DNA of 64,000 nt, from assembly GCF_910592395.1 (NCBI RefSeq), contig NC_088320.1:16182501-16246500 (forward strand), read 5' to 3'. The notes beneath the pieces are model-generated. The model was not told the DNA's origin and made no database searches. It saw only the letters and a program-made list of their open reading frames with translations. This document shows, one piece after another, positions 19,743-63,364 of this stretch (position 1 is the stretch's first letter; each line of letters starts with the position of its first letter). Position numbers and translations under genes: made by a program. Source of the stretch: Lineus longissimus (lineage: Eukaryota > Nemertea > Pilidiophora > Heteronemertea > Lineidae).

Positions 19743-20104
19743 CAGTGACTGCATCTATTCGTTCGAAAACAAGTTTATAAACGCATTTAACTCTTGAATA
19801 AGGAACTATCGAACAATTGCACACTAGGTTGTGATTCAGAGAATTATAAAATACACATCGTTCATAAATGGATCTCCTCAGAATAGCCATCGATTCTGAA
19901 ATTGAAACTTGTAAGTAACTAAAATAGTTAAGCCAATATAACTCCAGATCTAGAATAAGGTAGATATTCTACTATCATTTTAAAAGCGTAAATGCATCCG
20001 ATGGTTTTTATGAATATAGCTATGATATCACTTAAAAAAATTGCACGAAGCAAGCTCATATTTGAATTAATGTACGGGTCATTTATTCACAAGGCTTTAA
20101 ATGC
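19743..20104. other. Spacer between GPCR paralogues
   Basis: About 370 bp between the start of paralogue B and the stop of paralogue A. It presumably holds the 3' end of A and the promoter of B; no specific motif can be supported. Confidence 0.4.
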
Positions 20105-22336: not shown

Positions 22337-22506
22337 TGGTTCTAACGTATGCTTGAGACGAAATTATGACTACTAAGTATTTCCACGTTTGCTGAATAGA
22401 TACATTTAATGCTACATTGTTATTTATAGCTCCGATGATGATGTCGTCGATGGAGGGCTATATTTGAATATTCGGACGTCAACACAAAGGTATAAATACT
22501 TGCATA

Positions 22507-37600: not shown

Positions 37601-37620
37601 TATGTTACATGAATGTAGGT
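34608..37620. other. Intergenic, nothing supported
   Basis: 3' flank of the opsin and 3 kb of sequence with short open frames only. A 134-residue minus frame at 36779-37183 begins with a hydrophobic stretch but has no splice, homology or composition support. Confidence 0.4.
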
Positions 37621-39535: not shown

Positions 39536-40029
39536 TTAATCAGAAGTATTATAACTATGTGATGTGGGCCTACTGGCGTACTGGCGGTATTGAATAAAAT
39601 CACCAGTGTCGCCCATACTGCACCCTGGCATAACTAGTGGTTTTCAATTACGAAGGAGTAAAAAAGGCTGATCTCAGGATGATATACCGTGGTAATGTAC
39701 ATACCTGTGTAAGATACGGTTCCGGAGATTCGGACTGAAAATATACCGATACACGGGTGTGGTAATGCTGGTTATACGCACCAGGTTGTATTAAAATCGT
39801 TCAATAAATTTGTTTTACTTTTGTAAACAATGTGGTTGTTCAACACACTTATAGTTGCACAAAATCATTATACTGTTCAAAGGCATTTCACATGGCGCAT
39901 TCAAAGCAATTATATTGAAGATGTCGGACTGCAAGTATGCAATGAAGATACCAGTGGAAAGATAATGGACGTTTAATGCCATCATCAAGAATGTCACCCA
40001 GCCCATTATAACGATTTTTAAAGCTCGAT

Positions 40030-40152: not shown

Positions 40153-40618
40153 TATATATAACTTTTCGGGGGACACTCTGTCTACCCCACCAAAGTTTTT
40201 AAAAAAGAAATGGAGTTTTAGCTCTAGCATGTTCCTGAAAGAATGTGACAACTGAACTTACTTGTGTGTATGCCATTCTGCTCTGTCCTCTCTGCAATTT
40301 GAACACGATAACTTTACTTTGAGTGTCATTTCAAGAATATTATGCGAAACAGACACAATTATCATGTTGCATTCGTCCCATCTGAAAAACTGTGCAGCCT
40401 TGGGTTTACGGTAGATTGGGGGTCCCCACCCTGCATATGACCGCGTTATTCAAAAATGATACTGCAGTGCTGAGAATCAAGGCGTTTCAAATTAACTGTT
40501 TCCATTTTATGGTTTGAGCACGAATGCAAGTTTTAAATCACAAAAATATGATTTCAAGGCGCATATCAGACCACAGTAATAATAAAATCTTTATATCGCT
40601 GAATGTAGGAAATATAAC

Positions 40619-40839: not shown

Positions 40840-41450
40840 TTACTCACCGACATTGAATCCTGCGGAGCGGGCTGAAAATAAATACAGAGACTTCTCCAAT
40901 TCTTTACTAATGAGGCTTCTAGCTTGGGGTAACACAGGCAATACAACTCTAATACAATTTGCAGTTGAATTTCGCGATATATAGCAGCCTACAACTTAAC
41001 TGTTCCCGAGACCCTCCAAGGGAAGTACGACATTATGTTGTTGATCAGTTAATCGCGCGTGGAAGTATGAAGTGGAATCAGCACGTAATTATTGCATCGT
41101 ACTAAAATAAAATACACCAGATGCCAAGTTGTAAGGTCAGGGAGGTAGGGGTATCATTATAGCTCCTCACACCTTGCAATAATTTCCGGTGGGTAATACA
41201 TGAGACGTCAAGTAACCTGTTTCATTGTCAGCAATGCTCGATCTTTCGATTATATAAGCCAAAACAGGGATTGTTGTTCGACCTGGGGTCGTGAGAACAT
41301 GATACCCATTATTAGGCAACAAAGGTTGGGCAAGGCAGGGTGCGTTCAATTTCTTACTAAGGGGAAGCTCGAATGACTTAAAGAAACATTTGGTATTATT
41401 GGTCATGGTTTTGATTTGAGGTCTTAATAGAGGGTGGTGAAGCGGTACCG

Positions 41451-43002: not shown

Positions 43003-44857
43003 CCCAACTAATGAAGGCGTCCATATTGTTAACTGAAAAGGACCATGGTCATTCTAAATGAATAGGCTTCATATTACAGTGATAATTCAAAAGTCATTTT
43101 ACGAAGGTAGGTCGTTCCTCTCAAGCAGAGGATCTTTTTTCAAAATTGTTACAACTCTCTGCTGTATATGTCGATAGCAAGATCTTGATTATTTTCCAAT
43201 GAGCGCGTAATGCCGGTGTGCAAGGGATAGTAGTCCTAGGGCTGATAGTCCGTGTAACAATAGCCCGCATTGCTAAATGTTTTGGTTAGGGTTAGCGGTA
43301 CAATAGATCATGCTGCTTAATTGATCAAATACAATGCTACCGGACTATGACTCCAGGGGGACTATATCCGCTGTCACACCGGAAACATGTAATGTACACG
43401 TACAGTAAAAAGGCTTTAATGCCATATTGTTTACTTTGAACAATATTTGCCTCCCACTTTGGGCTCAGGGGTAAATGTTCGCATTTCCGGCCCTCCCAAT
43501 TTGCTGAAATTAACGGTGCACAAGGAAATTCTCCCATTAATTAGAGCGTCCCCAGCTTTTGACTCCGGGAATTTCGTCGACGTTGTGGCAACGATATTAA
43601 AACTCGCATTACCATTGGTCTTATCGTGCATACGGCATTGAAATCACTGTTTTCTCTGAGATCTGCACTTTATCTTGTACAGTGGGTCTCAATAAAAAGG
43701 TTATCCTAAAATAATGGGTTAATATAACCAGGTATGAATTTTATGATTATAAACATGATTGCATCATAAGGTGGGCGCTATTAGCTTTCCATTCAAACCA
43801 GCCTTGCATTGATGTGGCGACACATCGCCGAGCACCATTGTCTTGAAAATGGCACACCAACATAAAAACTTAAAGGTTGGTGAATAATGGGCAGTGTAGG
43901 CTCATATCAAATCAGAGACAAGATACGTTCGTACAGTACAAGTTACAGGTCGTGCATTAAATCAAAGAAAACGTGTCGTGTCCAATGATGGTACACAGGC
44001 AAAAGTTTCCGTCCACGGATAGCTGATGGCCCATGAACGTTCCATAAATGGAGCCCATGGATGGATAGTTCATGATTATCGCAAACAACGTTTAACAACT
44101 AATCTCCCATCAACTATCCACTGACGGCCCATGGATGTTCCATCCACGGACGCCCATCCACGGATAGCTGATGGAGATTCTCCATCAGCTATCCGTGGAC
44201 GGCCCATGGACGGAACGTTCATGATTAATCACCATCAGCTATCCGTGGACGGAGACTTTTGCCCGAGTCGTGCCAAAAATGGGGCTATATTTCGAGTGTC
44301 AGATCCAAAGGACTTTCAGAAATCTTTGGAGGGCACAAGATGGTACACCGCGTAACGACTCATCGCAGTCCGCAATCGGCTGAAAGAACTGTGAGGAGAT
44401 CGTGTTATTGCACTGTACGAAGCTGTGGAGCGGCCACCAAGGTCACTTGATTTGATCCCATACGAATTTTTCTTTGGGGACATTTGAAAAAGAGAGTTTT
44501 CTCCACTTCTCCCCAAGATATTGCCGAGTTACGGGATTATATCACCTACGAAATCAATATTCTGCGCAACGACCCAGCTATGGTGAGTCGAGCTGTGCGA
44601 GACACGTGTTTGCCACCATTCCCCAAGGATGAGATGAAAAGGCGCGGTGATTAATTGGCTACACTGAGGAATGTCAGGGCACTGCAGAATCATGATTGCC
44701 ACACGCACGTTCTTCAGCACAAGCCGTAGAGAAGTAAGTTACTCACTTGCACAATAGCCGCCACCGACATCACTGGTGCCTGCCATACAACCACTTCCCT
44801 GAATGTTCATGGCCGCCGGAACCTGGGTCACTCCACCCACAATGCGAGCACTCAACA
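43003..44857 (-). CDS. Micro-exon gene unit 5, divergent (A'-D')
   Basis: A' 44747-44857 is 111 nt, phase 1, reading 'RIVGGVTQVPAAMNIQGSGC' then MAGTSDVGGGYCA. It keeps the GG, NI, GSGC...GT.D and final Cys positions of A. D' 43003-43032 is 30 nt, phase 1, VNNMDAFISW, matching D4 VTNIQNFKSW. A CCGGTGT element, a foldback and a mariner relic lie between them. E, F and the 3' end were not found to the left. Confidence 0.58.
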
Positions 44858-47800
44858 CTTTTAAAAAGAATGGCGACATTTCAGCGAGACATAACATGAG
44901 TTACACGAAATACACTCTATGTATGTATATAAACACGCTTATCTTAAATGGTTAGTGAAGGAACCTGATCTTCAATGATCCAATAACTCTTGTTTTCGGC
45001 CGCTGGGAGCAATTTATATGACCCCTAATGGCTAGTTTCCACTTTTTCGGTGAGTGAAACCACGCGGCTTGCAGAAGCGTTTTGACTTGATGTATACTCT
45101 TAGAAGTATAAGTTTTTCAGCTTAAAAAATCTTAATAAGTCTTTTTCGGCGAACAGAAATTTGCATTCCATAGATTGAGGTTTTTCGGTAAAATGATTCA
45201 GGAAAACCTTGTCGTGCATAATATATTTGCATCAGCCGAAAACCTGAACGTTTTCTCAAAAGCTCAAAACGTGTATTGCTATGAGTGTACGTTATATGAG
45301 CTCGGTAGATATGACCGCAAAGCCAATCAAATGCAAACGCGACGATCAACAGCTGTTAAGTTGAAGAAAAAAATTAATTTGGCGATGATTTCGATTCAGA
45401 ACTTTAGAAATGGACGTGGAGATTGCTGATTCCCAGTGTTTTTTACCACTTCAGGTACTGGTTCGACTGCGCCCGCGCCGACTGATTACAAGCTGAAACT
45501 CTCAGCCACTTGTATATGTCTGTACAATTCCTCTGTGGGATATCGTACTTACCTGTGTGCTCAGTTCCCGTGCTCGAGCTCGACTGGTACATTTCTGCAA
45601 AGGATGATGTCAACAATGGTGCATTTATTTAATGCTTTGAGATTTCAGCGACTCGTTAGAGCATTGAGCATTGGGCTTTTGATAGGCTTTGTGAAGGTCA
45701 GGTCAGGTCAGGCTAGCTACCTGCCACTGGTAGCCCTGTAATCCAGTGCCACCTGTCTCAGGTGGGCGACTAGAAATCAAGGTTACTAGTCACTCAGGGC
45801 GGATGAGCTCGTCATAGGGTCAACGGCCGACTAGCTTTCCCCTAGCATTGCCTAGCGGAAACTATGTCTCCCAGGTAACTAGACACATATGTGACTGGTC
45901 GCCTAGGGGTAACCGGGTAGTCTGGGCTCTTCAGCCGGGTTATGGCAACCAGACTAGGAGACGGAAACTCCGATATAAAACCTGACCGAAGACGGAGCGC
46001 ACCGGCCATACTGGCGTCTAACCGGGTACGCACGCATTCACAACCTAAAAAAAAAAAAAAAAAAAAAAAATGCCGATAGTCTTTGTCGAGCATTAAGCAT
46101 GGGAGTAAAACTTCCGTGTCGTGGTTTGACCTTTGCTTGATAGTTTATCAAACATTTAGTAAGTTAAATTGGTTACGTTTTGATAAAATCATGATGAAAA
46201 TCGAAAGTCATCTCTCACTATAAACCCATTGCACTTCAGAACCAAATTTGTTTTATTTTAAGTTTTTAGATGTACGTACACAAATCTTAAGGTTATTAGA
46301 ATTCGTTAAAAATTCAGTAGGTGCCCATTTAAAACATTGGAGGCTCTTCTCTGGAAAACTAAGAACCTGATTTGCACCCTTGAAATTGGCATTCAAATCG
46401 CTTTGAAAGAGTTCGAATTGCTTTAGAGATTCAAGTTCTCAAATTGCTTTAGAGTTTCAAGTGGTCAACCCGTGTATGAAATGCTGAAGACGGCCAGCTC
46501 TACGTTTTCAAACATGTAGGCTGTTTGATTTCACTTACCCATGATGTTGCTACCAAAATCTGCAAAACAATTTTAGCGCTTAAATAATATCTCGCTCCAA
46601 AACCGACTCTATAGCCACGAAACAGTCACCAAGTTCGCGAAAAGTACATCGGGAGTATGAAAAATATATTGACGTTGCCGATGTTCAAAGCTAAGGAAAA
46701 ACATCGGCATCTTATTGGGTGCTTCCGCCTTTGACATTTATGAGTTTGACTACTTCTGGGGCAGGTATACACGTTAAATACTCTGTCTCCATTTGAAGAC
46801 AAAGCTGTTATTTGAACGGTACACGATTTTGATCGTGCAAAACTAGTCGTGTTGATTACTTCTGCAGTTATTCAGGCAGACAATAGGGATGGCAGCTTAT
46901 TATGGAATCACCCGTCACCATTTCAATTTTCCAGATTTACTGAAAACGCGATGAGCGAAACTAGTTATGAATGAGCGATATCGCATACGGGTAATATAAT
47001 TTTGTCGTAAATTGGACATGATGTAATTCAACCGAGTTGCGCAACATGGCAAGCGATGATATCCAATACCTTTTTCTTCTTCGGCGTTCGCTCTGCACTT
47101 GGAGGTGATTTTCTCCAGGGAGTATTCCTCCTCCAAGGGATGAGCGTTTATTTGTGACACTACGGTTATGCGCCAATTGGGTTAACTGGGGCTACTGAAT
47201 CCTTCGGTGAGCGGTTGAGTCCACGCAAGTTTTTATGATTCTCACTCGGTGGGGTCTTTAACCTGCCCTGGCATAGACACCAGATACAAGGAACCTCGGT
47301 TTTAAGTCTCATTCGAAGGACTGTGAAGAATCAGGAATTTTAGTTCCTTGAAAAGCCACGCCGGTTCATCCAGAAGTACAATCCTGAGTTTTTTCGGGAC
47401 CGAACCTGGGCCCTATTGTGTGGCAGCCATGCAGTTTTAACCACTTGGCTATGAAGCTTCCCGTGCCCAACCTCTAACACCTGTCTTCACACACGCTACG
47501 GTCGTCACAGGCGGGAACCATGCAGGCCAACCTTTGTGTACTTTGTTTGATTTTTTAAATTCTAAATATCTAGAACTACTCACTGATATTCAGGTGTACT
47601 GACAAAGCTGGAAAAGAATGGTGCATGTTATCACAAAAGTAATCGTGAATATTTAAAAGTTATTTAGCCGACGAACCGAGGATAAGGATTATCGCTTTTA
47701 GAAGTAAATCTAGACCTCTTTGACCGTTGTGCATGAACGACTCGGCGGGTTTTTCAGGTTTTAACTTATCATTTTATCAATTCTGACTTTAGGACTCCAG

Positions 47801-50800
47801 AGGATTATATTTCAGTAACAGGATCCCAAAATAGAAACAAAATCCCAGAAACACATATAAATAATACATAATTTAAATAAAGTTTCTTTTTCTACTAAAC
47901 AAATAACGAATTAGTTTTCAAACTTTCGAATTTGTTTACTTACTCCAACTCTTGAAGTTCTGAATATTCGTGACTGGAAAAGAGAACGGATCGACTGGAT
48001 TGATTTACATTTATCAATTACATTATTCCGTAGTAAACAAACTAACATGACCACTATCAGGCATCTTGCACAAAGCAAGATCATCAACAAGATATACCAA
48101 TATACCAAAGACATGTACGGTGGCCCATAGAGGACATGCGTTTATTTTCAATATAATAGAAAATGTTTCTTTTTACAATGCGTTTTTTTTCTCTCGAATT
48201 ACAACCGCCGTCGGATTTATTTCTCACCGCCGAAAAAATCATTTCCACCGCCGGGTTAAAAATAATAATTCCCACCACCGCGGTGGAAATTAATATCGAC
48301 CGCGGTGGAAATTAATATCGACCGCGGTGGAAATAATATCCACCGCGGTGGAAAAAATATCCAACGCGGTGGAAATAATATCCACCCGGTGTCAATAACG
48401 AATTAGCTCCCGCGGTGGATATTATTTCCACCGCGGTGGATATTAATTTCCACCGCGGTCGATATTAATTTCCACCGCGGTCGATATTAATTTCCACCGC
48501 GGTGGATATTATTTTCCACACCTGTGGATATTATTTTCTTTGGCGGTGGTGGGAATTATTATTTTTTACCCGGCGGTGGAAATTATTTTTTCGGCGGTGA
48601 TAAATAAATCCGACGGCGGTTGTAATTCGAGAGAAAAAAAACGCATTGTAAAAAGAAAAATTTTCTATTATATTGAAAATAAACGCATGTCCTCATGTAA
48701 AGATTGAAATGATTTTTATTCCTATCATAGGCGATAACTTCACAAAGTGACTAATCAGCAAATTTTCACTTTGAGAAAACTCCACTCAAAGATTCCGTAT
48801 ACATGTACATGTAGTTTGAATGACTATGTGTATTATAATGACACGAAATGCATGAATAAAGCGTTATAGAATTGACATTGGCTTTGAATATCACCGTGAT
48901 AATTGGTGTGTAAGAAGACACGCCTAATAAAACTCAGATGGCGCTGTTATCTCAATTTCAATTTCAGAAAAACTACAGACTGGTCACTCTGTGAAATACC
49001 TGGTACCATGCTCCGGGTAAATTTAGCTCTAAACTTGCAGACGTTAAACTAATTTTCTGTACTAGGCCTATATGTTGACATGCTCAATGTCCGTTGCCCT
49101 TATCTTCGCTAAATACGGGGAAAGAATCGTTCAATCGGCTCACCTTGGCACCAGCCCTGTGTTGCCGCATCCATTGTACCAAGCGGACAACTTCCCTCTG
49201 GATTGATATTCTTAGACACGAACAGGAATCCTCCTTGAACCGTGAACTGAACTGGAACATCAAAATGAACATAAATATTTTGCTGGAATGCTTGTATTAG
49301 ACTCTGACAACTTGGGCGTGAGATTCACCTGGCCAGGAGGATAGTGTGTCAACTTGACACCATGCGCCGCCACTGGTAGTATTACACTGATGCCGTTCTC
49401 TGACAATGATTTTCACCAGTGTTTGAAGGCAGTTTTGGGCATGGCTTGCGAATTACAAGTAGGTTAAGGTTACACCCCGTTCTAGGGCATTGTTTATTGC
49501 GGTTCAAAGAGTTTTCATTAATGCTGTCTGGAGAGGTTGCGGCCCTGCTGGAAGCCGTTTTGTACAAACAAAACTACGTTTTATTTTCGCGGATTTTGCG
49601 AACAACTTCCGAGCCCTCCGATTTGCTAATGTGTTGTAAAGTCTCCAGCTCGCCAAACAGGGTAGATTTTTTACCTGTTTGGCAAGCCCGGCTGGCCGAA
49701 CAGGGTGGCTTTTTAGTGCTGTTTGGCAAGCGGCTCTCCAAACAGGACCAAAAAAAAGCCTGTTCGGCGAGCGGCTTGCCAAATAGACCCGGCCAAATGA
49801 AACTGCCCATCCGCACCGACTTCATGAAAGGGCTCGGATGAGGAACAGTTAAACACATTATTACTTGCCCTCTCACAGGTATGAAGAGACCATTTATTTC
49901 GGTAAACATGCATACTCTGCATTTTCACACTGACAGCGCAGTGGCGATGTCCTCAAATTTCTAATCTTATATTTTGGGTGATGACTTGTCCCGCATGCTC
50001 TTGAACGGCATGATGAAATTGCAGCTTATCTCATAGACAAAGAAGATATCTATAGACAGCTGCATGATAAAACTCAGTTCTTTGACCTACCAGTTATGTG
50101 TTGCCCATTGATGATAACTGAAAGATTAATTGTGATATGGACAATGATCGACATATAATCACGATGATGCTACATGCTTTGTCTTTATTTACGATACAAT
50201 AGTCGCCCATACATCAGATGTGCTCGGGTATACTGTTGTAAACTGATGGTGAAGCAGACATTACTACAAGACCGCACGCAATGTATAATGTTTTCTCACT
50301 CCTAGAAAAAGATTGTTTATCCTTTTTTGTTTCGAGATTTTCACTCATCGATCAATTAAGTGGAGTTTATAGATGAAACCAAATTCTGTAAACCCACACA
50401 TGCGTGTCTCTTTTCATACTATCTCAGCTAATGGTCCTGAATATGCAATCATTCTCACCTGTATTCATTCCATTTTGAATGTTCACCGTCTGAGTGGATC
50501 CGGATGACGAGCCTCCTGATGATGAACCTCCAGAAGATGAACCTCCCGATGAAGAACCTCCAGAAGACGATCCGCCTGATGAGCCTCCAACCGAGGTACC
50601 CCCGCCTAAACAGAGGAAGTTTCATAGACAATTCAAAGAAGATCTCCATCAGTGTGAATGTTAAAATCGAAAACACAAATTGTTACTGTTGATTCGTCAT
50701 GGCTAACTGAGAAAATAAAGTCTCACCGGTCCCTGCTTGATTTTAGTTATTGATAAATATCGTTTACCATTCATGATGTCCTATGATTTCCTGACCTAAC

Positions 50801-53800
50801 TTCTGCCAAAGTTGACATTCTATTGACAAGCAATTCGATATGCAAATTATCGATGCATTAAAGGGAACTGGAACCGCCGAGCGATTTATTCAACTTTTCG
50901 ACTTTCACCGCCCGAGAAAGTCAAACTTCCAACTTCCTATTCGAGTTCAGATTTGTAGCTCCACCCCCAGTGCCCGAGCATGCGCAGTTCAATTTGTTAT
51001 TATTGAGAATCATGTGAGAATCACTTGAGTCATGCGATCTTTCATTCATGAGTTTTCGTAGTAAATTCCATAGCAGTGACGTCACTCAATGATTGACAGC
51101 TAGGCGCCATGTTTCATTCATGCCTCGTTCTGATCACCCGATACGCGGGAGATGAAAACGAGGTCATACGAACTGGCTTGGCGGTTTCAGTTCCCTTTAA
51201 AGATGCGTTGCATTTTGACCAGAAACCTAGCAAATAGAGCATTTCCACACAAGAAACGATCGTGGTTATTATGGAACGTTTATTTTATTATTTTTTACTG
51301 ATCTGATTGTTGCTAATGCACCGACTGTGAAATTAGTTGTTTCAACTACCAAAATAGTAATTTTTAACCATTTGATAGTAGTTTTTGCTGCTTTTTTAGT
51401 TGGAAGAACTAATTAATGGTTAGTTTTTTCACTAATTTCACAGTTGATGCAATAACAACTTCCAAATTATTTGTTTTTACTTAGAGAGATTTTAAGATTG
51501 TGTGCTGTGCAACATGCGCTTGGTTTTGATGTGACGGGTTACATATTAGTACACTGACTGATTTGTGACCAATAGCATTCCGCGAAGATGACGTCACTGC
51601 AGCTGCTGCCCTCTATTTCCCCATCGCTGAATTACAGGCAATGTCGGACAAACATGCGGTTTCGTAATGGATTCAGGCTTTCTAACTAGGGCAGTTAGAT
51701 TCAATCTGGCACATGTCCGAGTGTTGGAAATACTACATAATTGTTCTGAATATTTCTCTCTCTGACTCTATGGTATCATTCATGCTAAAAACAATGCAGG
51801 GTCAAAGATAATTGACTTTGAAATAAGCTCAAATGCGTAGAAATAAGTGTCGATGTCCGACTGTCACGTGACTAAAACGTCATCAATATCTTATGCATAT
51901 GACCTTGTGAGCTATAAATAGTAACTTCGTGGAATGCTATTGATATCATTTCATTTTACTCACCAAATACTTGAATCAAGCTTTCGGAAAAATCTGCAAA
52001 AAAGGAAGCCGCGCTTATTCGTTGTGCATACTGTCAGTGGCTTATAGGTCATGCAGACGGTACTCTATAGGCTTTTTGTACGATATGACGTTACCAACCA
52101 GGAACCTTTGTTTTCGGGACTAAAAAGACTACGAGAGGCATATTGTGTTTTACTGGAAACTTAAGTCATTTAAGATAAGTAAATAAACAACTTCATTTTT
52201 AAGAGTGTGTTTGCCGGTGTAGAAGTTTGAAATGTTCTAGGATAAAATGTGGGAACAAAGGATTCTATTATGCGCTGAGCTATTGACGGTCATTGCCTCT
52301 ATAGAACCATATGCCATAATCTGTCAGAATACAATAGGCCCGGACACTTTTTCCAGGGGGGACACTTTTTACTTTTACATCGGCACCTGGCCTTGCTTGA
52401 TAAATTAACACGCCACAAACTTTGTAAAAGTCAAATGAATTGTCCCTGATCTAGACATCTCATGCATACTCACGGAGGTTCAGGTGAAGTGACAAAGCTG
52501 AAAGAGAATATGGAAATCTATTACTATGGTACCAGATTTCCTTCGTAAATACTTCCCCTTTTCTTATAATCATATTCAAAAGTAAGTGACCTCATCTTTT
52601 TTTGCCGCCGCCCAAAAACTACGAGCCAGAAGTCTAAAAAAAGTGATTGTCGCAAATCTCGGGTCAAAAAGTCGAAATTCGGCTGGAAATATGTCGTTGA
52701 TTAATCCAACCAAATGAAAATTGTAAATGTTTGGTCCGAAAGAGGAAAGACATCGCTTCGTCAGACATTCCAGAACTATATATAATGTAAATAAGGATAT
52801 AGTTTGTACATTTCAGTTTTTTTTCTGTTGAAACTAGCAATCTCAGTTCGGTTTTATCAAGTATAGATTAGAGATCACGTACCCTTTTTTGATATTTCAA
52901 TTATTTGGATTTTTCAAACAAATCTATTTTTTCTAATTTGCCCGATTAACACATTTTGTTTACGGGGGATATTTAGTACGGGGTTGTGATAGAAAACTAC
53001 AGACAAAATCCATTCGATTGGTTCTACGGTTAATGAATAAGAGCTAATCTAATTACAAAAAGCCCCCTATATTCAAAATTAGAACTAAGTGCTAGTCCAT
53101 CTAACCAAAATATCTAGTTGAACATTCTTCTTTAATCCATAATTGGTTTTATTCATAAACAGACCATAATGAGAACAACTACAAATGAACTAATTCTCAA
53201 AATAAATGTCATCAAAATATAAAGAATATATTTATTTTTCGACATAACTCGTACACTTACTCCAAGTTTTGAAGCTCTGGAAACTAATGACTGAAATGAG
53301 AATAGATCACCTTTGTTATTCATCAATTAATTCCCACAACAAATAAGAGTATATTGTAATTCATGACTCCGGCCACCCTAAACAAGGTTTTAAAGATTCT
53401 TGCATCAGTTTATAGCAAACGGATAAACAGCCATTAGGATTCAAAATTCCCGATAATCGGTAAATCTTTGTAAAATCAGTAGGTTCTTGGCAAGAAAGAC
53501 TCGAGTCTTGGCCTCAAGCTCGTATTGGAAACCTGAAGACAGGTGGGGTTATGTTGATGTTGGCTTAGGATCAGCACGGCATGTTAACATGGAATAATTT
53601 TGTTGTCCCCCCCCCCCCCTCCCCCATCGATCATGGTTGAGAATAGAGGTCAAGCTGAGCATTTTACTTCAGCTACACTTTGTGAAATATAAAGACTTTT
53701 GAGTTAACCCGACTGTGACAGAGCGGCTGCTCGACACTGGACACCTCTCTGTAAAAACAGCTAATTCCTAAATGAAACACAAAAATTTATTATAAGATAA

Positions 53801-56800
53801 AAATTATTTACAATATTCACAGCTGCTGAAACTAAGGAAAGATTAGCATGTGAGATTTCAAATGTTCAGTTCAGGGGTATATCATGCCACATGGGAAGTA
53901 GGGTTCACTGTTCAGTGTTCACGGCAACTGAGGAAATAAAACGTCCAGTTCAAAAGGAATCCATGAATAACGTCCGAATCCAAATAAGGGCCCAGATATG
54001 GCAACACGGAGGGTAAATTGGGAGGCAATTTATGAATACGTATTCATCCATTCCAAGTGGAATACGGAATGTAGACGTTCCGATTCCAACACATGTGTAA
54101 CCCGAGTTACAGCTGCAGCGACTCCATACGTTCAACGAATTGCGGCACCAACGCCTTGATGATCACTCGATCATGTCTTCCGACTGTAAAGTCCGGATTT
54201 CAACGAAGTATCCCCCGAAAAGGGATTCTGGAGCTCCAGGTTATTTGACAAGGAAGCACAACTCAACTGCCTTCCTTGGAGTCTCTCTCAGTACTGCCAA
54301 TACAGTCTACACTTCAACCATGCCTCACAATAAGGCCTAAGCCTTTGCCTCAATTACCAAACCCTCCAGTTGTCTAGTCATTGCAAAGTCATTGTCCAAT
54401 CTCCAATTGTCAAGCATTTCCACAACTCTCCAATTGTCCAGTCTTTCTACTTGAGTCCATGTTACACAACACTATCTAATAATGAACTTGAATGACTTAG
54501 GACATATTAAAATGATTACCACACTTCTTATGTAATTGGCTCACAACAAACTTAAGTGCTTTTAAATAAAGAAACATGGGATTCATCACACCGACATATG
54601 CATGTAGGGCATCTAGCATTGGGTTGCCATCGCCATTATCAAGCTAGGAAAATAATCGTTCGATATCTGCTCACCTTGACACCAGCCTTGGGTTGATACG
54701 CCCATTGTACCAAGCGGACAACTTCCATCTGGATTGATATTCTTAGACACGTACAGCTTTCCTCCGGAAACCGCGAACTGAACTGGAACATCAAAATAAA
54801 CATAAAAGGAATTTGCCAAGGGCGGCGTTTTTTAAAACAATTTCAGTTTGTCTGATTTTTCTTTGGAATTCGACTCGGGTTAATACAAACATTCAAGTAC
54901 TGTCAACCACTAAATCTTCTTTGGATGTTTATTTTAGCGGTCCTGGCAATCATTGAAAAAGCAAATACTCGAGTTAATTGTGCAAACACATTGATTCCAG
55001 CTCATAGTTATGGTAGGATAACACTGAAAGAGACTGCGACGATAAAGCATGTGGCAGAGCTTGGTTATTTGACAGGCAGACTGCACCCGAACATTTCAAA
55101 CAGTATGGGTTGTGAAAACCTGATGTACAAAGCTTCCTCAATTGAGGAAAAGGAGGCCAACTTGATCTTAATTGGTACGTATTTGGTCTTGTATCAAGGC
55201 GGACGGTGATGTAATATCCGATTGATTTTACAACATGAGTAGTCGCACCAGCCATTCTTTACTAAATCTTTCAAAAAATTACGAAGCACTTACTCGTGTA
55301 AAGCGGTTATAGCTCATTTTCAAAGCGTCTATTTTTCCAAGAATTCCATACAAAAATGAAATAGTTAACAACGCTGTTGTACACGGCCCAAGATTAACAC
55401 TACTACGCATTTTAATCTGTATAGATCAACGTATTTTGGGATTTTATTAAGAGATTTTGGTATCACGCTGCATATTCAACGACACGATTTGAAATATTTC
55501 TAAAACACATGGTCGCATGATACAAATGAGTTCTTTCACCTACCAGTGATCTGATGTCCATTGATGATAACTGAAATAGTAACCATGATATGGCGGGTAT
55601 TACATCATAATAATGTAACTTTATCACGCACCAAAGAGACATAGATGACCGGTGTAAAAGTAAAAAGTGTCCCCCCTAGAAAAAGTGTCCGGGCCTATTG
55701 TATTCTGACAGATTATGGCATATGGTTCTATGGAGGCAATGACCGTCAGCGCATAATCGAATCCTTTGTTCCCGGACATTTTATCCTAGGACATTTTAAA
55801 CTTCTACACCGGCATGAGAATCAATGATTGCGGGATAGTTATAAGTCGTCATCAGGCTACGATCCTCGAATGGGGGCAAATCGTAGGCCGAACACGGTAT
55901 TGCTTCAGGTAAAACTCATTGGTAACCTGTAAATGCCGTATCTTAAAACTGTTTTGCAAATCAGGCCGCAGTTGACAAAAATAACACAGGGCTTCGGTAA
56001 TGATCTGTAGTTGTGGTGAAGCTCACAATAGCAATTCATTCATAGTGATCCAACGCTCTCGGGTGATGAGTTGGTGAACTGATGATGGTGCGGACGGATC
56101 TATAAAACCACAAGGATTATACATAACATATAGCGAGTTTCCGCAAAATTTCACAAATTACAAATTACGTATTACGAATTGCTATTTATCCGAGAAAGAG
56201 ACCACCAGATCATTGGTTTCGAAGCTGATCAACGTCAGTTGCCCTTAGAAGGGTCACTCATGATCAAACGTTCTTTCACAAATCCACTGTATTGCATTAG
56301 ACGCAGCGAGTTTTGAATTCGTGGTGACGAACCAGCCTAGTCGTTATGAATTAGTCTACATTGTCGCAGCGTCCGTTTTTCAATAAGACCGGTGTAACAT
56401 CTGTGGTTGTTTCCCATGTGTCAGTGTTTCCAAACAATAGGCAGCTAGAGAGACCACGACTTTTCAATAGGGGGGATACACAGAAAAACTTGTCAATCTA
56501 TTTTTGAGCGTTCCCAAACAATGAGGGGAAACACTCAAAAACAGAAACACTCAAAAACATTACACCGGTACTGGACGAAAGCATTAACTTCTGACACATA
56601 ACACTAGGTACAGCTGACTGCAAAATGGAACGCGAGTTCCTTTGTAACTATAAGTTCGTAATCGTGACATTTGCGGAAACTCGGTGATATTCTTTTCGTT
56701 CCGAAATACAGAATTACAGAATACATACAGAAATTGTTGTTCAATTCTAATATTTTCGTCATTGACATTCACATGGAAAATGATCAGTCAAAATTGTGAT

Positions 56801-59800
56801 ATCATACCGTAATACATTTATGTTAGCTATACGTCTAAAATCAGAACTCATTCTTACGTGTATTTCCTCCACTCTGAATGGTAGTCGTCTGACTGGATCC
56901 TGATGACGAACCTCCCGATGACGACCCTCCTGAAGACGACCCTCCCGATGACGACCCTCCTGAAGACGAACCTCCAGATGACGAACCTCCTGAAGACGAA
57001 CCTCCAGATGACGAACCTCCCGACGAGCCTCCCACTGAAGACCCTCCAGTAATACCTACGGCTAAAAAAGAAGGTTAGAAAGAATGCTTCCAACATGGTT
57101 GGCATTCTTGTTGTTGTTTTAGAGTTAATGATAAAATTATGCAGTAAAGGTGAGAAAAATACTGCATCGATTTTCAGTTTGGTGGAACGCCTGGCGGACA
57201 CTGCCTCGTAAACCGTTGCATATTGGGTTATAACTGATCGGCTGTAGGCGTCCACTTGCTTGGGTTATGTTCGAAACATAGCGGACGTCCATGGCGGTTC
57301 ACTGTCAATACATTTACTGCCATTACATGTATAGGAACGCTTTGTAATGAACCAAAAGGAACAAAATGAATAGCCGTATGGACTGTACAGAATGTTCATA
57401 CCTCATCAAAAGCGCCTGATATATGCTAATTTATGCATAATGCCGTCATTACCCTGATCTAATTTCAGGTCAACAAGCATGACGTCATGTAAAGGCTCCT
57501 GACCTATTTTTTATATCTTATAATCAACTTATGTCTAAGTTAACACTCATTCGACCGCCACATTCATCAACATAATTTACCTCTAGTTACCACGCCACCT
57601 TTTCATTTTTACATGCACGTATTTTATAGCAGTCCAGCTCGTCTCAATCGTGGTTAAACTGACATCATAAACTATTTGTGTTTGCTGCCGCCCATCGGTG
57701 GTTCCAGGAATCAGTGTGTCAGGAATCTGCATTCCACACACATCCCGAAAGCGGTGCGAAAGGTGCTATATTTTCGAAAGCAACCGAACTATTGTGTACA
57801 AATGTACCATATCATTAGTTTACTGCTGATTTCTGAAGATGACCCAATTCACTATTATTTCTTTTTACTCACCAAGCATGCTTTCGGGGAAATCTGCAAG
57901 AAAGAAAGTCAGTTATATATCTCAGCCGTCCGTAGCTTCTATAATTAGGTCTGTCGCAGGGCCACAAGAACTACTGGCAAGAGAGAATGGGGGGCCTTAG
58001 ATGCAACACTCTCCTAGACATGGACAGAAAAGAGGCGACCACCATATTTCGTCAAAGGACTGGCCATCGCAGACGAAAGGCCAGCCCCAAGAGGATGAGC
58101 ATGGCCGAGTCCGGAAGGTGCCAGTGCGGCACATCTGATCAGACACCAGAGCATGTACTCCAGAGCTGCTCACTCTAGGATACTGAGAGATTGGCCACAC
58201 GGTGCATTATTTGAGATCAAGTTCTGGGGATCAAGGGATGAACAAGAGACGACAGCCCGGTTTATAAGAGACATAGGCCTGGTTGTGTAGTATAGCCATC
58301 AATAGTAAATCGAACGCTTAGAAGACGAAGAAGAAAATCTGTCGCTTTTGCTAGAGACATGCACGAGGTGCACTCCAAAATATATTGCGAGAAATCGAAC
58401 CAGGCACTTCGTTTAAGCTAGGGACCGATAGTATAATGATCTAATTAATTTACAAGATTTTGTTGGGACTGACTATAACCGTGTTTTTTGTAGTTTTCAG
58501 CACTCAATGTAAGAACTATATTATATGACATGGATGCTCTAGTAGTTTTTGCTAGGTTATATAGCCACAACATGGCACATGACACACGATGGCGACCAAC
58601 ACCTGGCCTTTGAAAGGAACATGCCGCATCGTCAAAGGCAGCATCAAACCAAACCTGGCGAAGGTTAATCGAATTTCCCCTGATGAAGACATCCAGTCAT
58701 ACTCACGAAGGTTCAGGTGAAATGATAAAGCTGGAAGAAATAGCGGAACGTTATATTTTAACTATGTTATCCAATATCCTTGTAATCGTCAATAGAATAT
58801 CTAAATTACTCGTTTAAATATTTTCGAGGATCTTTTGACCTCATAAGCTTTTATACACTCGTAGAAATAAATGTTTTAAGGCTGTTGAAAAAAACAGTTT
58901 AAAGTCTTTCCGACCAAAACAAAAATGCACCATTTTAAGCTGAATGAAATTGTGGTTTCTCAATCATTTTGCCAAAATCTCCTCTCTGTGTGTCAATGAA
59001 TTGACTGTAAACCTAAAACGACCAAAACCGGCTGTAAATATTCGCCTGTGTTACATGTGAAGTACATGTTTGGTTCGAAATTGGCAAAAAACTCAACCGG
59101 TTCAACAGAAATTCTACAAATTTCTCATGAAGTAGGCTAATGTGTGTGTGCTTCTGTGTTAAATCATGAAATTGACTATATATATATATAGGCGAATAGC
59201 TTGCTATACGATACAAGTATGACCAAAGTCACAAAATATATGTTGATTGTACATTGTATATATAGCATACGATATTCTTTTCTACCAAATTCTCTAAATT
59301 GTATACTTACTCCAACTTTGGAAGCTCTGGAGACTCGTGACTGCAAAAGAAAACGAGCCGAATCGCTTGTTATTCATCATCAAATGCCTCTACAAATTGT
59401 GATATGCATAACAAAACTAATAAAAAAATATCAGTACCCTTTTCCCTGAAAATGATCAATTTCAAAAAGCGCTTACTCGAACATCATATTTAGCTTGTCA
59501 CACATTGATGCACACTATCAAAAATCTGCGCAAACCTGTGATGACACAATTTGTTGCTTGCCTTCGCTAAATGCGGGGAAAGAATCATTCAATCTGCTCA
59601 CCTTGGCACCAGCCCTGGGTTGACGCATCCATTGTACCAAGCGGACAACTTCCCTCTGGATTGATATTCTTAGACACGTACAGATATCCTCCGTGGACAA
59701 TGAACTGAACTGAAAAAAATTATTTTGAACTTAGAAGGGACATAGTTATATTGGAACTCGGGTTGACACAAACATGGACTGTCATAAGTTTCTGGGGACA

Positions 59801-62800
59801 TTTCGTTTTTGCGGATTTTGTAAATAAGAGCAAATATTTCTTGATTGGAGACACAGTATATTCAGTCACAATAAAATCGTGATTCCTTCTCTAATTCGAA
59901 AATATTGAAATGGTGCGAATAGTTTCAAGTTTACAGTTAGGGGGTTGGTTGATATTAAAATCGACGCTAGATAGCCTCAGACTGAGCTTTGCCACTTCAC
60001 TCGTCTCGTTGCATCCAAATATTTCATTCAACAAAACCCTTGGTCAACAACAGGACGCCAAAACTGTAAAATTTGATGATACTAAGAAGTAATTTCAACA
60101 TGGTATCTGGTTTGATCAAGACGAAAACATTTATCAATGTGTTTATTGCCTGACTTTTGGCCACACCAAAGACTATTGCCGGGATTTAAGGACTTTATTG
60201 AAATGTTCTGCTCACACTTTGCTTCTATCCCTTAGAGGCCAATTTGTAACAACACCACGGTCGGCAAAAGTCGAACCAAACTTTCAAGATTTTGCATCCG
60301 GTTAAGTATGCGCATTGTGAAAGTCTACCTTTGTTATGGCTTGGTTACCGTGCTTACCTATCAATGTGAATGTGTAGCCGAATGCAAAATCTGTGCTGTT
60401 TCAAAGGCCTCACAGGAGTATTCAAGGGCATGATCTGATCTGCAGTGTTTTTCGACATAGATGGTCACATGTAAGAACGATTTCTTTGACTTACCAGTAA
60501 TCTGGTGTCCATTGATGATAACTGGAAGAGTAAGTATGATATGGATGGTGATACGTGACATGTTGATGACACGTTATCATCACGTTCAAAATGGATGACC
60601 GGCGAGAGCACAAATGACTGCAGGATACGCTCTAGCTAGTCGTAAGCCGTCATCCTCGCCAATCTGGCTTGCGGGAGTGGACAAAATTAAAAAAATTAAA
60701 GGTGTAATATAAAAAATCGGTGTCAGATGTGTTTTCCTCGAAATTTTATCTCCCCTGGCAAATCGAAAATGATCCGCCAAGTTTCTGAAATTCATACCTT
60801 GAATCATAAATTCTGCAAACTAATGAAATCTTATGTCTTTTATGATATCTTATTTCTCGGTCTTCAATAAAAAATCATTCTTACGTGTATTTCCGCCACT
60901 GTGAATGGTAATCGTCTGACTGGATCCTGATGACGAATCTGAACCTCCCGATGACGACCCTCCTGAAGACGACCCTCCTGAAGACGACCCTCCAGATGAC
61001 GACCCTCCTGAAGACGACCCTCCAGATGACGACCCTCCAGATGACGAACCTCCCGACGAGCCTCCCACTGAAGAATTTAATGCTAATTTATGCATAATGC
61101 CGTCATTACCCTGATCTAATTTCAGTTCAACAAGCATGACGTCATGTAAAGGCTCCTGACCTATTTTTTATATCTTATAATCAACTTATGTCTAAGTTAA
61201 CACTCATTCGACCGCCACATTCATCAACATAAGTTACCTCTAGTTACCATGCCACCTTTTCATTTTTACTTGCACGTATTTTATAGCATTCCAGCTCGCC
61301 TCAATCATGGTTGAACTGTCATCATAAACTATTTGTGTTTGCTGCCGCCTATCGGTGGTTCCAGGAATCAGTGTGTCAGGAATCTGCATTCCACACACAG
61401 CCCGAAAGCGGTGCGAAAGGTGCCATATTTTCGAAAGCAACCGAACTATTGTGTACAAATGTACCATATCATTAGTTTACTACTGATTTCTGAAGATGAC
61501 CCAATTCAGTATTATTTCTTTTTACTCACCAAGCATGCTTTCGGGGAAATCTGCAAGAAAGAATGTCAGTTATATATCTCAGCCGTCCGTAGCTTCTATA
61601 ATTAGGTCTGTCGCAGGGCCACAAGAACAACTGGCAAGATAGAATAGGGGGCCTTAGATGCAACACTCTCCTAGACATGGACAGAAAAGAGGCGACCACC
61701 ATATTTCGTCAAAGGACTGGCCATCGCAGACTAAAGGCCAGCCCCAAGAGGATGAGCATGGCCGAGTCCGGAAGGTGCCAGTGCGGCACATCTGATCAGA
61801 CACCAGAGCATGTACTCCAGAGCTGCTCACTCTAGGATACTGAGAGATTGGCCACACGCCGCATAATATTTGAGACCAAGTTCTGGGGATCAAGGGATGA
61901 ACAAGAGACGACAGCCCGGTTTATAAGAGACATAGGCCTGGTTGTGTAGTATAGCCATCAATAGTAAATCGAACGCTTAGAAGATGAAGAAGAAAATCTG
62001 TCGCTTTCGCTAGAGACATGCACACGGTGCACTTCAAAATATATTGCGAGAAATTTTAATTTAAGTCTTCGTTTCAGCTAGGGATCAATAGCATAATGAT
62101 CTAATTAATTTACAAGATTTTGTTGGGACTGACTATTACCGTGTTTTTTGTAGTTTTCAGCACTCAATGTAAGAACTATATTATATGACATGGATGCTCT
62201 AGTAGTTTTTGCTAGGTTTTATAGCCACAACATGGCACATGACACACGATGGCGACCAACACCTGGCCTTTGAAAGGAACATGCCGCATCGAAAGGCAGC
62301 ATCAAACCAAACCTCGCGAAGGTCAATTGAATTTCCCCTGATGAAGACATCCAGTCATACTCACGAAGGTTCAGGTGAAATGATAAAGCTGGAAGAAATA
62401 ACGGAACGTTATATTTTAAATATTTCATCCATTATCCCTGTAATCGTCAATAGAATATCTAAATTACTCGTCTAAATATTTTCGAGGATCTTTTGACCTC
62501 ATAAGCTTTTATACACTCGTAGAAATAAAGGTTTTAAGGCTGTTGAAAAAAACAGTTTAAAGTCTTTCCGACCCAAACAAAAATGCACCATTTTAAGCTG
62601 AAAAAAATTGTGGTTTCTCAATCATTTTGCAAAAATCTCCTCTCTGTGTGTCAATGAATTGACTGTAAACCTAAAACGACCAAAACCGGCTGTAAATATT
62701 CGCCTGTGTTACATGTGAAGTACATGTTTGGTTCGAAATTTGCAAAAAAAATTAACCGGTTCAACAGAAATTCTACAAATTTCTCATGAAGTAGGCTAAT

Positions 62801-63364
62801 GTGTGTGCGTTTCTGTGTTAAATCATGAAATTGACTATATATATAGGCGAATAGCTTGTTATACGATACATGTATGTCCAAAGTCACAAATTATATGTTG
62901 ATTGTACATTGTATATATAGCATACGATATTCTTTTCTACCAAATTCTCTAAATTGTATACTTACTCCAACTTTGGAAACTCTGGAGACTCGTGACTGCA
63001 AAAGAGAACGAGCCGAATCGCTTGTTATTCATCATCAAATGCCTCTACAAATTGTGATATGCATAACAAAACTAATACAAAAATATCAATACCCTTTTCC
63101 CTGAAAATGATCAATTTCTAAAAGCGCTTACTCGAACGTCATATTTAGCTTGTCACACATTGATGCACACTATCAAAAATCAGCGCAAACCTGTCATGAC
63201 ACAATTTGTTGCTTGCCTTCGCTAAATGCGGGAAAAGAATCGTTCAATCTGCTCACCTTGGCACCAGCCCTGGGTTGACGCATCCATTGTACCAAGCGGA
63301 CAACTTCCCTCTGGATTGATATTCTTAGACACGTACAGATATCCTCCGTGGACAATGAACTGAA
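43003..63364 (-). CDS. Modular micro-exon gene, five tandem units, partial
   Basis: Minus-strand gene with 26 recognisable exons, reading from right to left. The repeating exon set is A (108 nt), D (30), E (24), F (21 or 30), B (42-204), C (27), and in one unit H (33). Every exon length is a multiple of three and every junction is phase 1, with GT donors and AG acceptors, so exons join in frame in any combination. A encodes 'QF.V.GG.LYVSKNINP' then 'GSCPLGTM' and 'TQGWCQG' with two Cys. D gives V(T/I)(S/N).Q(S/N)F(K/Q)(S/T)W. E gives TLS.HLN(L/I). F is variable, for example HFPESML or NFGSNIM. B is a GGSSS repeat ending in 'SGSSQT.TIQSGGNT'. C is 'IINGHQITG'. No start, signal peptide or stop exon was found; the start should lie beyond 64000. 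One long gene is favoured over tandem genes because exon spacing leaves no obvious room for gene ends. The protein is probably extracellular (Cys pair, Gly-Ser linkers), which is inference. No known family recognised. Confidence 0.75.
43213..43382 (-). mobile_element. 170-bp CCGGTGT-ended MITE, family gamma, copy 2
   Basis: Inverted copy of 1399-1568 with the same length and the same internal 'GGTTAGGGTTAGCGG'. Confidence 0.8.
43998..44263. mobile_element. Foldback element with repeated 'AGCTATCCGTGGACGG'
   Basis: Ends GGCAAAAGTTTCCGTCCACG and its complement. Inside are at least four more copies of CCATCAGCTATCCGTGG in both orientations, including a perfect short hairpin at 44162-44200. Confidence 0.85.
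44280..44665 (+). pseudogene. Decayed mariner-like transposase C-terminus
   Basis: Across shifting frames one reads 'AQDGTPR' (the usual QDGAPPH block), then 'RPPRSLDLIPYEFFF' (the PPRSPDLTP.DFFLWG block) and a degenerate C-terminus. Frameshifts and stops make it inactive. Confidence 0.7.
45553..49251 (-). CDS. Micro-exon gene unit 4 (A-D-E-F-B')
   Basis: A 49144-49251 (QFTVQGGFLFVSKNINPEGS then CPLGTMDAATQGWCQ), D 47944-47973 (VTNIQNFKSW), E 47584-47607 (TLSVHLNI), F 46539-46559 (NFGSNIM), B' 45553-45594. B' is only 42 nt (EMYQSSSSTGTEHT) but has a perfect acceptor TTTGCAG and donor ACAG/GTAAGT in phase 1; it keeps a Ser run without GGSSS repeats. No C exon was found. A 563-bp palindromic element lies between A and D. 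Confidence 0.68.
45681..46086 (+). mobile_element. A-tailed retroposon with target-site duplication
   Basis: A body of about 350 bp from 'GGTCAGGTCAGGTCAGGC' ends in a run of 24 A (46047-46070). Flanking GATAGGCTTTGT (45681-45692) and GATAGTCTTTGT (46075-46086) agree at 11 of 12 bases. The body has no reverse transcriptase, so it is SINE-like or a truncated non-LTR element. It ends about 90 bp on one side of exon B' of the micro-exon gene. Confidence 0.75.
48131..48693. mobile_element. 563-bp palindromic element with CCACCGCGGTGG repeats
   Basis: Long inverted arms start AGGACATGCGTTTATTTTCA and include 'GAATTACAACCGCCG' and 'TTTCTCACCGCCG'. The centre is a series of CCACCGCGGTGG palindromes separated by AT-rich 'AAATTAATAT' spacers. 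It lies in the intron between A and D of unit 4. No coding capacity. Confidence 0.9.
49635..49800. repeat. Foldback repeat of the 'CTTGCCAAA' family
   Basis: Inverted relative of 13372-13540, with several 'TGTTTGGCAAGC' and 'GCTCGCCAAACAGG' blocks facing each other. Lies in the intron between C of unit 3 and A of unit 4. Confidence 0.75.
50091..54782 (-). CDS. Micro-exon gene unit 3 (A-D-E-F-B-C)
   Basis: A 54675-54782 (QFAVSGGKLYVSKNINPDGS then CPLGTMGVSTQGWCQ), D 53261-53290 (VISFQSFKTW), E 52474-52497 (TLSLHLNL), F 51964-51993 (30 nt here, HFSESLIQVF), B 50459-50605 (GGGTSVGGSS, five GGSSS repeats, GSTQTVNIQNGMNT), C 50091-50117 (IINGQHIT). Introns do not resemble those of units 1-2, while exons do. 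A 371-bp MITE and a CCGGTGT alpha element sit in its introns. Confidence 0.75.
51307..51469. mobile_element. 163-bp hairpin MITE
   Basis: 'TTGTTGCTAATGCACCGACT' with 'GTGAAATTAGT' at the left, and the complement (ACTAATTTCAC, 'GATGCAATAACAA') at the right. Confidence 0.75.
51571..51941. mobile_element. 371-bp MITE, copy 2
   Basis: Copy of 17384-17754 with the same length. It ends 22 bp from exon F of unit 3, i.e. just downstream of its splice donor in the direction of transcription. Confidence 0.85.
52214..52383 (-). mobile_element. CCGGTGT-ended MITE, family alpha, copy 2
   Basis: Inverted relative of 30274-30435. Right terminus is slightly mutated (TACATCGG). Confidence 0.8.
55544..59709 (-). 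CDS. Micro-exon gene unit 2 (A-D-E-F-B-C)
   Basis: A 59602-59709, D 59311-59340, E 58707-58730, F 57873-57893, B 56858-57061, C 55544-55570. A through F are near-identical to unit 1 because both lie in the 3.65-kb duplication. B is full length: acceptor 'CTTTTTTAG', then AVGITGGSSVGGSS, eight GGSSS repeats and GSSQTTTIQSGGNT. C is IINGHQIT. All joins are phase 1. Confidence 0.75.
55649..55812 (+). mobile_element. CCGGTGT-ended MITE, family alpha, copy 3
   Basis: Same orientation and interior as 30274-30435. It lies in the intron between B and C of unit 2, about 80 bp before exon C. Confidence 0.85.
56389..56568 (+). mobile_element. 180-bp CCGGTGT-ended MITE, family beta, copy 2
   Basis: Near-identical to 24172-24350. 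Also lies in the B-C intron of unit 2. Confidence 0.85.
57424..60411. repeat. Left copy of the 3.65-kb tandem segmental duplication
   Basis: Aligns with 61079-64000 at a constant offset of about 3655 bp, with only scattered substitutions and small indels. The full unit would run 57424-61078. It contains exons F, E, D, A, H, C and most of B of the micro-exon gene, plus a non-LTR retrotransposon tail. Confidence 0.9.
57959..58345 (+). mobile_element. 3' end of a non-LTR retrotransposon, copy 1
   Basis: Encodes a polymerase C-terminal piece 'FRQRTGHRRRKASPKRMSM' then a Cys-rich finger C-Q-C-G...TPEHVLQSC. After a frameshift comes a 'KFWGSRDEQETTARFIRDIG'-like end and 'GAAGACGAAGAAGAA'. This is the usual end of Jockey/I-type elements (family knowledge). 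It is truncated and frameshifted, and lies in the E-F intron of unit 2, antisense to that gene. Confidence 0.8.
60358..63364 (-). CDS. Micro-exon gene unit 1 (A-D-E-F-B-C-H)
   Basis: A 63257-63364, D 62966-62995, E 62365-62388, F 61530-61550, B 60885-61067, C 60495-60521, H 60358-60390. The A exon reads 'QFIVHGGYLYVSKNINPEGS' then 'CPLGTMDASTQGWCQ'. B has seven GGSSS repeats plus GGSDSSS. H (FAFGYTFTLI) is seen only here. The B exon begins exactly at the duplication junction, so its acceptor (ATTCTTCAG) is a junction product and it lacks the first seven residues present in unit 2. Each small exon is flanked by pyrimidine-rich AG and consensus GTGAGT or GTAAGT. Confidence 0.72.

Follow-up and report, generated by a model that had tools for sequence, protein, structure and literature searches.

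Does a cluster of very short exons on the minus strand of chromosome 13 of the bootlace worm Lineus longissimus belong to one modular gene, and would such a gene generate protein variants or build a single large protein? The window, by which we mean the whole stretch of 64,000 nucleotides that was analysed, had been described in an initial annotation as carrying 26 minus-strand exons at positions 43003-63364, most of them tiny, with lengths divisible by three and phase 1 on both sides. The strand and the symmetry agreed with our analysis, but the number did not, as we counted 25 exons. All 25 had lengths divisible by three, AG and GT borders, phase 1 on both sides and an open frame, and 16 of them were no longer than 36 nt, with sizes of 21-30 nt. 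A real modular gene of symmetric phase-1 exons is present on the minus strand of this locus.

The repeated order A-D-E-F-B-C proposed for these exons was also recovered (all coordinates are window positions on the minus strand). In unit 4, exon A with its Cys pair (108 nt, 63257..63364) is followed by exons D (30 nt, 62966..62995), E (24 nt, 62365..62388) and F (21 nt, 61530..61550), and then by exon B, which encodes a GGSSS linker (183 nt, 60885..61067) and has the acceptor TTCAG/TG; an alternative in-frame acceptor at 61082 would extend it to 198 nt. Unit 5 consists of exons C (27 nt, 60495..60521), A (59602..59709), D (59311..59340), E (58707..58730), F (57873..57893) and the GGSSS linker exon B (204 nt, 56858..57061). 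The same series was found in unit 6 (C, 55544..55570; A, 54675..54782; D, 53261..53290; E, 52474..52497; F, 51964..51993; B with a GGSSS linker, 147 nt, 50459..50605), where exon F is 30 nt long, 9 nt longer than in the other units, and in unit 7 (C, 50091..50117; A, 49144..49251; D, 47944..47973; E, 47584..47607; F, 46539..46559), where a 42-nt exon coding for a short Ser-rich linker (45553..45594) was named B by its position only. Unit 8 has no recognisable exon C or F; its exon A (111 nt, 44747..44857) is divergent, with a weak acceptor (score 3.5) and both Cys residues kept, and is followed by exon D (43003..43032).

The array extends past these coordinates and past the window itself, and comprises seven C-A-D-E-F-B units that are complete and an eighth that is degenerate. 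On the 3ʹ side, we found exon E of unit 8 (40848..40871; a weak profile match, E 0.08), two further phase-1 symmetric exons, which by eye resemble the end of exon B (QNGxxT, 40262..40291) and exon C (IxISG, 39705..39734), and a possible, weak terminal exon with a stop codon (39536..39624, the end being computed from the stop position). Three further units and a 5ʹ end lie beyond the window. In units 1-8, all 45 exons were divisible by three and bordered by AG and GT. The seven complete units contained 42 of 42 expected exons in a single order, with no loss, gain or reordering, and the length differences between units (+3 in A, +9 in F, and exon B ranging from 42 to 564 nt) were all multiples of three.

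A generic splice rule, which was not trained on the array exons, recovered 21 of the 25 exons at 43003-63364 and missed four. Among its candidates of 36 nt or less at the same locus, 13 of 14 were divisible by three. Inside the locus there were 25 open, symmetric candidates of phase 1, as compared to five in the remaining 43 kb of the minus strand, five on the plus strand opposite the locus and five in the rest of the plus strand. When the lengths of the array exons were placed at random inside the locus, the combination of AG, an open phase-1 frame and GT was retained in only 11 of 4,982 tries.

The C-A-D-E-F block together with the end of exon B encodes about 83 amino acids with two conserved Cys residues. 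Sixteen columns in exons A, D and E, including both Cys and a Trp, were invariant in all eight units. In the older unit pairs (5-6, 6-7 and 4-7) exon identity was 0.79-0.86, and intron identity was 0.09-0.46. Every one of the 11 pairs involving unit 6 or 7 had a dN/dS ratio in the range 0.35-0.58, and the range was 0.28-0.48 for the older pairs when exons A, D and E of units 4-7 were considered alone. The array exons jointly encode one conserved block, which is under purifying selection.

The initial annotation had recognised no family for the repeated unit and had called for profile searches of the joined protein; our searches agree with it. The C-A-D-E-F unit reached no curated cut-off in Pfam or NCBIfam, and all its matches to PDB sequences were at E 0.3 or worse, the best profile match (E 0.31) being taken as chance. 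Pfam scores for Thioredox_DsbH (E 0.0057) and HIPIP (E 0.042) were below the cut-offs and were likewise attributed to chance, and an early idea of a VWD-like domain was unsupported in the Pfam scan. Searches of 5.8 billion proteins, a collection with few named animals, returned 5 and 13 candidates, none of them at E <= 1. Eight relatives of a GPCR exon from the window were present there, all of them JGI proteins, which indicates that the collection holds some animal-like proteins; the absence of the unit from it is weak evidence. In IMG/VR, none of 20 pattern matches was confirmed. A search of the genome with exon A gave seven matches at E <= 0.001, all within the array, the exon A of unit 8 not being among them, and literature searches, mostly at the level of listings, returned no report of this gene. 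The unit appears to be a small domain with no known relatives in the databases searched. Structure prediction for exon A alone yielded a low-confidence hairpin (mean pLDDT 66.6).

The initial annotation had also called the product secreted, which could not be read from the window itself; a signal-peptide-like exon with a phase-1 donor was, however, located about 22 kb past the window end. This exon was chosen by a simple hydrophobicity rule and its donor is moderate (gtacgt). Upstream of the array it is followed in frame by one PAN domain, a pair of VWA-type domains and a long GGSSS linker. The PAN_1 match in Pfam scored 24.6 bits, above the cut-off of 21.4. The first VWA domain scored 24.7 bits against a cut-off of 23.8, over profile positions 1-82 of 174 (the N-terminal half); this match crosses one predicted splice junction, and the exons of the domain gave no match when searched singly. 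The second VWA domain remained under the Pfam cut-off with 14.4 bits, but it aligned with the first at 29% identity over 166 columns (E 1e-24), spanning both junctions of the first, and is homologous to it. Among PDB sequences, the PAN exons had no convincing match (best E 0.005), and the exons of the second VWA domain had none at all.

The predicted gene model comprises 55 exons and 1,639 codons in one open frame without a stop, the last two exons being of low confidence. It could be argued that two or more genes, a PAN-VWA gene upstream and a separate array gene, were joined wrongly in this model: between the upstream exons and the first linker exon are distances of 0.4-7.4 kb, bridged by frame and splice rules alone, and this linker exon has a poor acceptor (caaag/GT), other weak sites in the model being the acceptor of unit 8 exon A and the terminal exon. 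On the other hand, all exons lie on one strand with no stop between them, and phase 1 was found at 53 of the 55 exon ends, the two exceptions both falling inside the first VWA domain. Furthermore, a 36-nt exon and the 564-nt GGSSS exon run in frame into unit 1, and the end of the GGSSS exon closely resembles the ends of exon B in units 1-6. We regard separate genes as unlikely, and all exons would be carried by a single transcript.

We consider it probable that the array forms the C-terminal portion of a single large predicted protein, which is probably secreted, has a beads-on-a-string build and would play a multivalent role in matrix, mucus or adhesion. In this predicted layout, a signal peptide, one PAN and two VWA-type domains, and a long, flexible GGSSS linker would be followed by seven or eight domain copies with GGSSS stretches between them. 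Each domain of about 83 residues would be folded from exons C, A, D, E and F together with the last codons of the preceding exon B, the remainder of B serving as the linker. On extensible linkers, such multivalent domains would act in the extracellular matrix, in mucus or in secretions of the epidermis, where additional contacts with proteins or glycans may come from PAN and VWA. Constitutive splicing of the micro-exons is probable, as is evolution of the gene through tandem duplication of entire units and in-frame changes of a 15-nt linker repeat. The locus is most likely to encode an unusual structural or binding protein, and is not a proven variant generator.

The claim that the locus could make very many variants was not supported. 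A combinatorial generator, in which symmetric exons are skipped or chosen freely to give many secreted isoforms as in schistosome micro-exon genes (MEGs), would benefit from the fact that any array exon of units 1-8 can in principle be skipped with no shift of the frame, as the initial annotation had pointed out, and from the MEG-like layout of short exons and long introns. The intron flanks of units 5, 6 and 7 were also more similar to each other than the background mean of 0.26, with values of 0.44-0.58 out to -30, 0.57 at +7 to +18 and 0.35-0.38 at +19 to +45; this would fit splicing control, but also a simple need for splice sites or gene conversion. However, the six exons always occur in one order, and we rate combinatorial splicing as unsupported because no exon was lost, added or reordered in the seven complete units. 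The donors of exons D, E and F are GTRAGT in 21 of 21 cases, the invariant residues F, W, S and N would be lost if D or E were skipped, and the exons form one block under purifying selection. We consider such a generator quite unlikely. A related and very doubtful scenario is an independently evolved micro-exon system in a free-living ribbon worm: with its new domain divided among six phase-1 exons that leave the frame intact when skipped, a secreted PAN-VWA protein could exist as a large isoform pool, produced from the one locus by regulated splicing of pieces the size of single strands and by in-phase cryptic splice sites in the GGSSS linker repeats.

The resemblance to schistosome MEGs in layout was nevertheless apparent. 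In published accounts, MEGs have short symmetric exons between long introns, a central coding portion made mostly of micro-exons (<36 bp), a signal peptide encoded largely in the 5ʹ exon and isoforms arising from alternative splicing (PMC4671649, PMC10526429, PMC4350168), and 26 of 33 micro-exons are symmetric in MEGs 26-32 (PMC4671649). To this extent, short symmetric exons and long introns are shared, a candidate signal-peptide exon is predicted, and all 45 exons of units 1-8 in the bootlace worm are divisible by three. The coding sequence here is, however, not dominated by micro-exons: exons of 36 nt or less make up 30 of these 45 by number but 837 of 2,799 nt by length (47 array exons), most of the coding sequence lying in the larger A and B exons. 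The array also differs in its repeated six-exon block, in the PAN and VWA domains upstream and in its occurrence in a nemertean, not a fluke. The polymorphic mucin genes SmPoMuc of Schistosoma mansoni are described as having tandem genomic repeats of exon 2 with its introns, small exons and in-frame exon loss by splicing (PMC2576457); the likeness is one of layout, and in the bootlace worm it is a six-exon block coding for a Cys-paired unit that is repeated.

Among extracellular proteins with VWA and PAN domains, our gene is comparable in its upstream part, with PAN and VWA above the Pfam cut-off and a second VWA copy, but differs by a micro-exon-coded repeat with no significant Pfam, NCBIfam or PDB sequence match. 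The tropoelastin gene has small symmetric exons of one split phase and of alternating types, and its product is extracellular. The bootlace worm array differs from it in its repeated Cys-paired unit with GGSSS linkers, and Pfam scans returned no elastin match. The array suggests that a gene anatomy of the MEG kind may be used, outside flukes, for an extracellular protein with tandem domains. With about 83 residues divided over six same-phase exons, the unit is an extreme, clean case bearing on the origin of symmetric micro-exons, for which splice control, accretion of strand-sized pieces and chance fixed by duplication are candidates. The array also offers a domain family with no known relatives, and micro-exons of such size may well escape gene finders.

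Units 1-5 are recent copies: the F-B introns of units 1-5 and the B-C introns of units 1-4 show 95-99% identity where alignable. No alignment was obtained between the B-C intron of unit 5 and those of the other units. The recent copies could be read as the mark of a recognition or self/non-self protein in which unequal crossing-over makes individuals differ in unit number and linker length, as could the linker range of 42 to 564 nt and the dN/dS values above 1 in two of the 10 pairs among units 1-5 (2-3, 1.57; 3-5, 1.05). Each of these values, however, depends on one synonymous change, the numbers are small, the proteins of units 1-5 are 87-93% identical to that of unit 1 with differences mostly in the B tail, and the data come from one genome, so that we find this reading improbable. 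Recombination inside the linker was dropped as a proven process, because the intron types of units 1-4 (F-B and B-C) fit exchange near exon B as well as plain duplications and indels. A decaying, unexpressed repeat locus, to which the degenerate unit 8 and the ill-defined 3ʹ end might point, is hardly credible in view of 1,639 codons with no stop, intact AG and GT borders in all 45 array exons and dN/dS below 1 in every one of the 11 older pairs.

In the linkers of the large predicted protein that we favour, we also noticed TTCAG sites cutting in phase 1, four of four in the unit 4 linker and four of five in that of unit 5, with none in unit 6. We only note them, because codon choice in Gly-Ser repeats yields such sites without selection.

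The initial annotation had placed 26 phase-1 exons on the minus strand at 43003-63364 of the window; the array itself was confirmed there, with the number corrected to 25. It is built of repeated six-exon units in the order C-A-D-E-F-B (units 1-8 from the 5' end, unit 8 being degenerate), in which A is the Cys pair exon, B the GGSSS linker exon and the others are micro-exons. As proposed earlier, all 25 lengths were divisible by three, and 16 of these exons measured 36 nt or less. When the three frames were compared, phase 1 was the sole frame open throughout all 14 array exons of at least 100 nt. The phase-2 frame met a stop within every one of the 8 exon A copies. In the phase-0 frame, exon A could be read through in units 1-7 but not in unit 8, and B was blocked in units 2, 5 and 6. 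The exons obtained from pattern, splice-profile and generic-rule scans were bordered by AG and GT on the minus strand. The generic splice rule, which was not trained on array exons, recovered 21 of the 25 and missed four; 13/14 of its short candidate exons in the locus were divisible by three, and it gave 25 open symmetric phase-1 candidates there versus 5, 5 and 5 in three control regions.

We then scanned both strands of the window with profiles for five parts of the unit: exons A, C, D and E and the terminal part of B. The best 15 matches per profile included five copies each of exons A, D and E and no sixth exon A; the E exon of unit 8 was a weak match (E 0.08). By eye, a further phase-1 exon at 40291-40262 looks like the end of B and another at 39734-39705 like exon C. 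Relaxed scanning between 34 and 41 kb returned these two, the unit 8 E exon and a fourth candidate having its start in common with a possible terminal exon. In the same region, at 37616-37824 and 38272-38600, short arrays of a AAAGGCACTAGG-type repeat unit lie in opposite orientations. Scanning of three neighbouring stretches located units 1-3 and the unit 4 C exon upstream of the window, the latter 58 bases beyond its edge. A genome search with exon A gave 7 matches, all within the array, the divergent unit 8 A not being among them.

A search of its own genome placed the window at bases 16,182,501-16,246,500 of chromosome 13 of the bootlace worm Lineus longissimus. The array could be joined to upstream exons in one gene model on the minus strand of chromosome 13: a signal-peptide-like exon (16,268,423-16,268,357), a PAN exon (16,266,423-16,266,124), a first VWA domain in three exons (between 16,265,993 and 16,262,971), a second VWA (16,262,201-16,261,623), a 36-nt exon (16,261,385-16,261,350), a 564-nt GGSSS exon (16,260,987-16,260,424), units 1-3 (16,259,100 to 16,246,948) and units 4-8, which lie in the window except for unit 4 C. 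The reading frame was open over 1,639 codons, and 53/55 exon ends were in phase 1, the two exceptions falling within the first VWA domain. PAN_1 and the first VWA scored above the Pfam cut-offs; the second VWA was under its cut-off, yet clearly related to the first by alignment. The model is supported by the behaviour of the first VWA, since its exons searched singly gave no Pfam match and passed the cut-off once joined, and since the alignment to the second VWA spans both of its junctions. PDB sequence searches with the PAN exon and the second VWA exon gave nothing convincing. With a weak terminal exon candidate carrying a stop near 39.5 kb, the predicted product would have 1,668 residues, in which no membrane anchor was visible by eye.

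Comparison of the units, with identity taken as matches over the longer length, gave 0.79-0.86 for exons versus 0.09-0.46 for introns in the older pairs 5-6, 6-7 and 4-7. Among the recent units 1-5 (five pairs), 20/30 intron comparisons fell at 0.90-0.98; the remainder were unit 4's C-A intron (0.83-0.84), F-B introns of unequal length (0.54-0.55) and B-C introns of differing type (0.13-0.25). The dN/dS was 0.35-0.58 in all 11 pairs with unit 6 or 7. Within units 1-5 there are ten pairs: three without nonsynonymous change, five at 0.34-0.52, and two above 1, each resting on one synonymous change. Around the C, A, D, E and F exons of units 5, 6 and 7 (background mean 0.26), preceding flanks kept an identity of 0.44-0.58 to about 30 bases; following flanks were weaker, dropping from 0.57 to 0.35, up to 45 bases. 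The introns also hold a 100-nt inverted pair, 97% complementary, at 52284-52383 (unit 6 E-F) and 55649-55748 (unit 5 B to unit 6 C). A set of nested inverted repeats that carries a CCACCGCGGTGG motif (48130-48694, unit 7 A-D intron; arms of 205 nt, 93% complementary) is perhaps a mobile element.

A later start of B and an F-B intron shorter by 350 bases distinguish units 1 and 4. On visual inspection, a deletion took the original B acceptor and the first codons, and we infer that a linker-internal TTCAG replaces the lost acceptor in the same phase. Unit 4 has a second in-frame B acceptor at 61082. The linker repeats of unit 4 (60885-61067) and unit 5 (56858-57061) contain TTCAG sites that look like acceptors, of which 8/9 would cut in phase 1.

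The conserved block, the GGSSS spacers of varying length and the PAN/VWA neighbours point, at the level of sequence, to a multivalent extracellular protein. The six exons were complete and in one order across seven units (42/42), which suggests that they behave as a single module under selection. On these grounds our preferred reading is a matrix, mucus or adhesive protein of beads-on-a-string type that would be spliced constitutively, a role we infer from the anatomy of the gene. Structure prediction of exon A alone gave a low-confidence hairpin.

Schistosome micro-exon genes (MEGs), as defined in PMC4671649, PMC10526429 and PMC4350168, have symmetric exons and consist mostly of micro-exons. 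The ribbon-worm gene shares the first feature, and the second by exon number but not by length; its layout is MEG-like, yet we do not class it as a MEG. With the polymorphic mucin genes of Schistosoma mansoni (SmPoMuc; PMC2576457) it has tandem exon-intron repeats in common. In another nemertean, a von Willebrand factor is named among upregulated genes in a ribbon-worm toxin paper (PMC9132205). Our literature search found no report of the present gene or of such an exon arrangement in nemerteans. Elastin is a further comparison.

Upstream of the gene, at about 16,273,480-16,275,940 of chromosome 13, there are minus-strand reading frames that we take, by eye, to resemble the end of a CLCA-type protein. 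Elsewhere in the window, minus-strand reading frames at 17937-22363 are apparently two tandem rhodopsin-type GPCR genes, with 7tm_1 matches of 35.1 bits at 20105-20656 and 29.9 bits, just under the cut-off of 30.5, at 17937-18434. A weak tRNA family match on the plus strand at 6759-6816 (30.5 bits, cut-off 29; no call by ARAGORN) is perhaps a tRNA-derived repeat. An opsin-like exon lies on the plus strand at 29964-30422, with a 7tm_1 match and opsins as its best PDB sequence matches.
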